Of a stretch of DNA of 34,823 nucleotides, positions 13,645 to 14,936 are shown piece by piece. A program made the translations under genes and the position numbers. Under the pieces are notes generated by a model, which made no database searches, was not told the origin of the DNA, and was given only the letters and a program-made list of their open reading frames with translations. Source of the stretch: Actinomycetota bacterium (GTDB lineage: Bacteria > Actinomycetota > Actinomycetes > Nanopelagicales > Nanopelagicaceae). The stretch covers positions 103,487 through 138,309 of the forward strand of contig PLXJ01000047.1 in assembly GCA_003151395.1 (NCBI GenBank), written 5' to 3'. Position 1 is the first letter of the stretch. Every line of letters begins with the position of its first letter.

Positions 13645-13769
13645 CCCGAGTTTGCTGACACTCCCGGTGGGGGCCGTCTGTAAAATGTGTAAAGAAATAT
13701 CTTGTGAATAGTTAACTTTTCTTGAGTGAACCTCTATCTTTACTTGAGAGTATTAATTAAAGTGCTTTC

Positions 13770-14915
13770 ATGAATATTCGTCGCGCCTTAATAATCGTCT
13801 CTTCACTTGCCATCACCGCCAATTTGACTGCTGCTGTTTACGCCGATCAATCCTCATCTCAATCAGCAGGCAGTCATACTTTCCAATATGTAGGTTTCCG
13901 TTCAGATGGATTCCCAGTTCTCGATTCACAGCAACAGGGAAATTTCAATAACGACAACGGTGGAAACGGCAATGGGAACTTGTCCGATGGCCAATCGTCA
14001 CAAGGCAACTCCCAAGGTGGAGATCAAGGTAATTTAGCTAACTTTGCTTCAAATTTAAGCAACACATTTAGAAAGGGATTTAGCCTCCCCGTCGGCTCTC
14101 CGGCACCGAGTCCGATTTATTGCCACGGTACTTGCACAACTTTAACTGGAACTATTTCTCTGATTCCAGTGTTTGTTGGCGGATGGTCCGGTACCGACGT
14201 CACAACATGGAATTCGGTCCTAGGCAATATTGTTACCTCACTCGGAAGTGGATCGGCAAATTCAGTTGCGCTCGCTGGTCATGTATTTAATACGACCAGC
14301 CTTTATTACACGAGCCAAGGATTGACGCCACCTTCGTTGCAGTGGGTAGCTAACACAACCGTCACAGATCCGACGGTTACTAATGTGAGTGACTCCGGCG
14401 TTGCAACAGAGATCAATACATTTATTGCAGCAAACCCGGCGATCGTTCCAACCGGGACGACCCCGGTTTATATCTATATTGGTGCCAAGACCACGCTACT
14501 TACTAGTGGATTCGGAACTAGTTATTGCGGATGGCACTCATATGGACTTGGATCAGGATCCAGTGTGCCATTCATTGCCTTCCAGGATTTCACTTCAACT
14601 TACTACCATACATGCGCCGCTCAAACATCCACACCAAATGGAAATGTCGGATTGGACTCTATGGCAAGTGTTTTGGTTCATGAAGTTGATGAGACCCTTA
14701 CCGATCCATACTTCTCCGGTTGGCTTGACTCTTCGGGCTACGAAAGCGCAGATAAGTGTGCATGGATATGGGGGCCACTTCAGAAGATCGGATCAGCTCG
14801 CTACGACATTACGCTCGGTTCTCTGAACTATCTCATCCAGACCAATTGGCTAGAAAATAATCTAGTCACCGTAAGTGGATCAGGTACCGGAAAGGCCTGC
14901 TCAATCGCTGGCTAA
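13770..14915 (+). CDS. Secreted EXORDIUM/PHI-1-like protein
   Basis: A 381-residue exported protein. The signal peptide is MNIRRALIIVSSLAITANLT with AAVYA just before a likely cleavage site near residue 25. Residues about 55-95 are low complexity rich in Asn, Gly, Gln and Ser. From about residue 110 the protein resembles the plant EXORDIUM / phosphate-induced protein 1 family: TGTISLIPVFVGGW, TPVYIYIGAKT, CGWHSY, then GNVGLDSMASVLVHEVDETLTDPYFSG in two consecutive stretches, and a closing YLIQTNWLENN with a final Cys. H304, E305 and E308 (HEVDE) look like a metal-binding cluster. Plant members affect growth and the cell wall; no bacterial activity is established. It is convergent with crp, 21 bases apart, with a 125-base leader. 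The assignment is by remembered family pattern, not alignment. Confidence 0.68.
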   Translation: MNIRRALIIVSSLAITANLTAAVYADQSSSQSAGSHTFQYVGFRSDGFPVLDSQQQGNFNNDNGGNGNGNLSDGQSSQGNSQGGDQGNLANFASNLSNTFRKGFSLPVGSPAPSPIYCHGTCTTLTGTISLIPVFVGGWSGTDVTTWNSVLGNIVTSLGSGSANSVALAGHVFNTTSLYYTSQGLTPPSLQWVANTTVTDPTVTNVSDSGVATEINTFIAANPAIVPTGTTPVYIYIGAKTTLLTSGFGTSYCGWHSYGLGSGSSVPFIAFQDFTSTYYHTCAAQTSTPNGNVGLDSMASVLVHEVDETLTDPYFSGWLDSSGYESADKCAWIWGPLQKIGSARYDITLGSLNYLIQTNWLENNLVTVSGSGTGKACSIAG

Positions 14916-14936
14916 TTACTCACTATCAAAAAAATA

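Follow-up and report, generated by a model that had tools for sequence, protein, structure and literature searches.

A bacterial PHI-1/EXORDIUM-family protein with an invariant HExxE cluster, a candidate secreted zincin-like hydrolase, encoded in an exchangeable slot between ridA and crp

The window analysed here, a 34,823-nucleotide stretch of the Nanopelagicaceae contig PLXJ01000047.1, carries at 13770..14915 on the forward strand a gene of the PHI-1/EXORDIUM family. On balance, with a confidence only a little above even, we take its product to be a secreted, zincin-like, metal-dependent hydrolase of the HExxE type, most likely a peptidase, encoded in an exchangeable cassette. Family membership, residue invariance, the predicted fold class, the domain partners and the exchange of the cassette come directly from the analysis; from them we infer metal binding, catalysis, the substrate and the exact localization. 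The new observation is a single slot between ridA and crp in this genus that holds a type A member of the family, a very different type B member or nothing. Small freshwater actinobacterial genomes thus retain a site at which a fast-evolving secreted protein can be exchanged. Moreover, the bacterial proteins, in which a putative active site is absolutely conserved and the predicted fold is protease-like, lend themselves to a concrete assay with point mutants, and offer a direct test of whether plant EXO is a pseudoenzyme.

The type A gene begins with ATG and encodes 381 residues, among which we found VYIYIGAKT, GNVGLDSM, HEVDE (residues 304–308), TDPYFSGW and the late Cys. From these the initial annotation had proposed a bacterial EXORDIUM/PHI-1-like protein with a metal site; the observation is confirmed and its interpretation partly supported. 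The protein opens with a signal-peptide-like N-terminus (residues 1–25; 13770..13844, forward strand), read in the sequence as an n-region with NIRR, a hydrophobic core and VYA followed by DQ. The predicted cleavage context is MNIRRALIIVSSLAITANLTAAVYA before DQ, with A25 kept in 17 of 20 homologues. It is followed by a variable Gly/Asn/Gln-rich linker (about residues 26–115, with the Gly/Asn/Gln-rich part at about residues 55–90; 13845..14114, forward strand), the length and repeat content of which differ between relatives in an alignment of 16 actinobacterial proteins (A1). The suggestion of a secreted protein with such a linker stands; no anchor was seen, and the protein may be released rather than surface-exposed. 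The remainder is the zincin-like Phi_1 domain (about residues 116–381; 14115..14915, forward strand), as indicated by AlphaFold2 models and Foldseek. Scans for sigma-70 promoters and terminators near the gene gave no more signals than shuffled sequences.

The family assignment, proposed at first from motifs, was borne out by a Pfam-A search: PF04674 (Phi_1) is the sole family matched, scoring 34 bits where the cut-off is 25 (E 2.6e-8) over residues 124–335. This match spans profile positions 8–229 of 276, i.e., most of the domain; a canonical bacterial member (L024) covers positions 1–267 with 125.5 bits. NCBIfam holds nothing covering the Phi_1 domain. The host genome (1.85 Mb, 54 contigs) has a single PF04674 copy. 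Among relatives that have a named record, the closest is 75% identical and stems from an uncultured actinobacterium (AlinenLipids bins). PF04674 is present in 14 of 60 close relatives, the host genome counted, and in 11 of 395 members of the class, while a wider-family profile finds matches in 19 of 396 members of the phylum, with up to five per genome. One Gemmatimonadota megaplasmid (Gemmatirosa), the only plasmid found, carries a member, and about 20 distinct homologues lie on IMG/VR contigs. The bacterial family is therefore patchy, yet not rare. That it is rarely discussed in bacteria holds to the extent that the 2009 EXO paper (PMC2661892) knew of a single bacterial homologue, that of Solibacter usitatus; rarity itself does not. 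The IMG/VR contigs hint at a phage origin, an idea we dropped since named phages yielded no homologue.

Several members depart from the common pattern. Five of those on IMG/VR contigs (L033, L035, L036, L037 and L063) have no obvious signal peptide and some contain Pro-rich stretches; the domain is possibly put to another use in them. Two divergent members stand in tandem in one actinobacterial genome (L077/L090; G629:C289), and two members of the phylum (G436 and G715) have about five each. At L110/L191 (G025:C88) a TAA splits the family match between two gene parts, which could mean either gene decay or a misassembly.

The proposed functional centre is marked by the conservation of a cluster of residues. 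Among 51 bacterial homologues that were found by HMM and re-aligned, thus avoiding motif-based selection, although the profile behind this alignment (A6) was built partly from motif-found sequences, H256, H304, E305, E308, E325, D328, C253, C282 and C330 are each present in 51/51; D312 is kept in 50/51 and W318 in 52/52. On the forward strand, H256 of the CxxH motif lies at 14535..14537, HEVDE at 14679..14693, D312 of TDP at 14703..14705 and the E325-xx-D328-x-C330 motif at 14742..14759. The 16 actinobacterial proteins of A1 share as invariant, among others, H256, H304, E305, E308, D312, P313, W318, D320, E325 and D328, together with the Cys columns C253, C282 and C330. In a set of 24 sequences (A5), whose columns average 19% identity, invariance is confined to H256, H304, E305, E308 and D312, joined after trimming by D328. 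Mean column identity across the homologue alignments is about 19–24%. Because the HExxE cluster is kept in 51/51 homologues picked by HMM and not by motif, it is not a product of chance, and the objection that HE..E might not be conserved among bacterial members falls away. We propose H304 and E308 as putative metal ligands and E305 as the candidate catalytic residue.

AlphaFold2 models were obtained for the window domain with 23 homologues (pLDDT 77, pTM 0.84) and for L024 with the same family (pLDDT 94.5, pTM 0.93). Both place HExxE inside a 19-residue helix ending just before D312 (residues 194–212 of the window model). When searched with Foldseek against 350,542 PDB chains, the window model returned metzincins at all of ranks 1–12 (best E 7.4e-3), and the best 50 matches listed for L024 were all metzincins (best E 1.7e-3, probability up to 1.00), including ADAMTS4, snake venom enzymes, ADAM8/10/17/22 and archaemetzincin. 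Neither model had a match with E < 1e-3, and TM-scores for L024 reached at most about 0.4. The comparison with zinc peptidases suggested by the initial annotation thus yields an HExxE helix and metzincin-like fold matches, none of them at E < 1e-3. Profile alignment by hhalign to 14 actinobacterial reprolysin-like domains covered an octapeptide around HE only and was not significant (P 0.034). The metzincin motif HExxHxxGxxH/D is absent, with HExxE in its stead and D at +8 in 50/51 homologues, and A1 and A5 contain no invariant or near-invariant Met downstream of the motif that could mark a Met-turn. Membership of the metzincins fails for want of HExxHxxGxxH and of a significant profile match; in view of the Foldseek E-values and the octapeptide-only alignment, we use "zincin-like" and not "metzincin". 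No work joining EXORDIUM with a zincin or metzincin was found among the literature matches listed, and the publications containing both EXORDIUM and "metalloprotease" are, going by their titles, plant expression, proteome or genome studies.

In the mechanism we envisage, the central helix of a zincin-like fold would carry HExxE in place of HExxH, and one zinc-like ion would be held by H304 and E308 together with a single further residue (D312, H256 or D328). E305 would then polarise the water that attacks an extracellular substrate, with the other invariant acids shaping the site and Cys253, Cys282 and Cys330 forming structural disulfides. Modules added to the domain in homologues, as seen in Pfam scans, comprise TIG, He_PIG Ig-like, ricin-type lectin (in L034) and FG-GAP; the window protein has a linker beside its Phi_1 domain and no added module. 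Such modules are common in secreted enzymes acting on polymers or surfaces. A hydrolase is supported by the 51/51 invariance, the HExxE helix, the metzincin matches, the precedent of CLCA1 (see below) and the added modules. It is weakened by Foldseek E-values above 1e-3, TM-scores of at most about 0.4, the hhalign P of 0.034 and the fact that no solved structure related by sequence was found; the departure of HExxE from the zincin consensus also counts against it.

EXO mediates plant cell expansion, and we know of no biochemical function for the EXORDIUM family. Plant EXO motif strings were not found in the open literature, and plant residues were probed only via the Pfam model, using two C-half fragments that serve as leads only: one taken as EXO-type, NLASLLAGTVTNP, and one taken as EXL-type, VIAHELAELSSNP. 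Against PF04674 the former scores 176.7 and the latter 136.8 bits, and both are therefore sequences of this family. Exchange of HELAE and ASLLAG, or any single H/E/E change, shifted the score of these fragments by less than 2 bits, and the D328 column is flat (0.1 bit in the longer fragment). Positive controls in the longer fragment were costlier: 3.7 bits were lost for the H of CGTH and 5.5 for the preceding C, 3.1 for the N of PNG, 4.1 and 5.5 for the N and P of TNP, 2.8 for the Glu aligned with E325 and 6.7 for the late Cys. Set against these costs, the flat HExxE and D328 columns indicate that the Pfam model conserves scaffold columns and not H304, E305, E308 and D328.

EXO/PHI-1 proper is not known to carry HExxE, and its loss would make classical EXO a pseudoenzyme; some EXL proteins retain the motif. 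With HExxE and D328 flat in a model that conserves the scaffold, plant EXO may indeed be a pseudoenzyme. An enzyme-like centre that is kept in a bacterium and not conserved by a plant-based model suggests an enzymatic ancestry for EXORDIUM. The contrast between bacteria and plants would then probably go beyond a mere absence of assays, the plant EXO type having lost these residues. The broader proposal that the PHI-1 family comprises unrecognised HExxE zincin-like metallohydrolases, with active bacterial members and plant EXO/PHI-1 as derived, scaffold-keeping pseudoenzymes, is one we advance tentatively, considering it plausible but somewhat less probable than not.

Plant EXO is often imagined as acting by binding, and the bacterial protein might similarly have no catalytic role and, once secreted, serve in binding or adhesion, acting through attachment to a wall polymer or a partner, with the His/Glu/Asp cluster holding a structural metal ion. 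Consistent with this, activity is known for no family member (PMC2661892), homologues bear the adhesive TIG, Ig-like and FG-GAP modules, and the Pfam model, plant proteins included, tolerates the loss of HExxE. However, full invariance of the Glu beside the His in the helix, across very diverged members, exceeds the usual demand of a structural ion, and the fold matches are proteases; we regard a purely binding role as unlikely. Distinctly less probable is a metal-dependent or acid-pair enzyme that acts through E305/E308 and flanking acids on glycans or peptidoglycan and not on peptide bonds. Plant members do act at the cell wall (PMC2661892) and L034 has its lectin module, but this possibility is ranked low because the fold matches are proteases, with no glycosidase or amidase fold among the Foldseek matches listed, and no carbohydrate-enzyme family emerged from the Pfam scans.

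The genomic setting of the putative hydrolase is itself variable. In the window the gene order is calcineurin-like phosphoesterase, yqeY, ridA, PHI-1, a crp/fnr-type regulator, an endonuclease III-like gene and a redoxin. The slot (13645..14936, unstranded), recognised by its holding type A, type B or nothing across the genus (loci L101–L108 and L146–L149), extends between the stops of ridA (YjgF/L-PSP family, PF01042 and PF14588; 13186..13644, forward strand) and the convergent crp/fnr-type gene (PF00027 and PF13545; 14937..15626, reverse strand). Nine genomes of the genus have a PHI-1 gene between ridA and crp, and in sixteen the two genes adjoin without it; these genomes are drafts, with both flanks on the same contig as the PHI-1 gene in G007 and G031. 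For the empty slots of G019, G011 and G018, the stop-to-stop gap measures 7, -4 and 8 bp, respectively. Type A occupies seven slots with 54–62% identity to the window protein (G020, the nearest, reaches 81%), whereas ridA and crp of the same genomes are 93–97% and 92–94% identical to those of the window. Type B, in G007 and G031, is 31–32% identical to the window protein and has an insertion of roughly 150–200 aa ahead of the final strands.

A tree built from five flanking genes places G007 as sister to G014 (support 92; with G005, 100) and G031 with G027/G029 (99); unlike this, the PHI-1 tree pairs G007 with G031 (100). Nucleotide identity between G007 and G014 is about 90% on either side of the slot, ending at the ridA stop and resuming at the crp stop, and the intervening DNA does not align. 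The swap of type A and type B is a gene-for-gene exchange with its borders at the two stop codons, in near-identical backgrounds, and presumably came about through recombination in the flanking DNA. G010 (L147) has between ridA and crp a 70-bp stub, GCTTGTTCTGTAACTGGCTGA, that resembles the type A 3' end (closest to G024 by eye). The stub is a deletion scar, so that at least one slot was emptied by deletion. Separately, G014 and G005 (L101 and L102) contain an inverted repeat between ridA and the PHI-1 start (GAGTAGAT and ATCTACTC, 5 nucleotides apart), with TTACTTGTAAGTAA at the matching place in G020; it is a candidate operator or hairpin.

Compared with the window gene, other type A genes show a dN of 0.32–0.42 (0.145 for the nearest relative), against 0.02–0.17 for neighbouring genes; dS is saturated between genomes and hence we make no dN/dS claim. 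This divergence, and the swap in near-identical backgrounds, could point to a surface factor of antagonism or defence (against phage, predators or competitors) with the swapped alleles as the main point and any enzymatic chemistry secondary, but the adjoining genes are housekeeping genes with no immunity or defence gene among them, the active-site columns are invariant while the rest varies, and secreted proteins commonly diverge fast in any case, making this the least probable of the explanations.

Taken as a secreted zincin-like hydrolase, the bacterial protein can be placed beside three known systems. With the plant EXO/EXL proteins (PF04674) it shares secretion and the CxxH, PNG, T(D/N)P, E325 and late-Cys columns; it differs in that HExxE and D328, to which the plant-based Pfam model is near-indifferent, are invariant in bacterial members, several of which bear extra binding modules. 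The metzincins (ADAM/ADAMTS, snake venom enzymes and archaemetzincin) provide the best fold matches of both models and likewise have HE on the central helix, whereas the bacterial family has HExxE, no invariant Met after the motif and no significant profile similarity to them. Finally, CLCA1 is described as having a protease domain that depends on zinc and in which a conserved HEXXE motif stands in an ADAM-like arrangement (PMC6851300). While CLCA proteases have a Cys-rich region and a VWA domain, and the window protein and ten relatives had no Pfam match to CLCA, VWA or Cys-rich domain families, the HEXXE motif itself is common to CLCA1 and the window protein.
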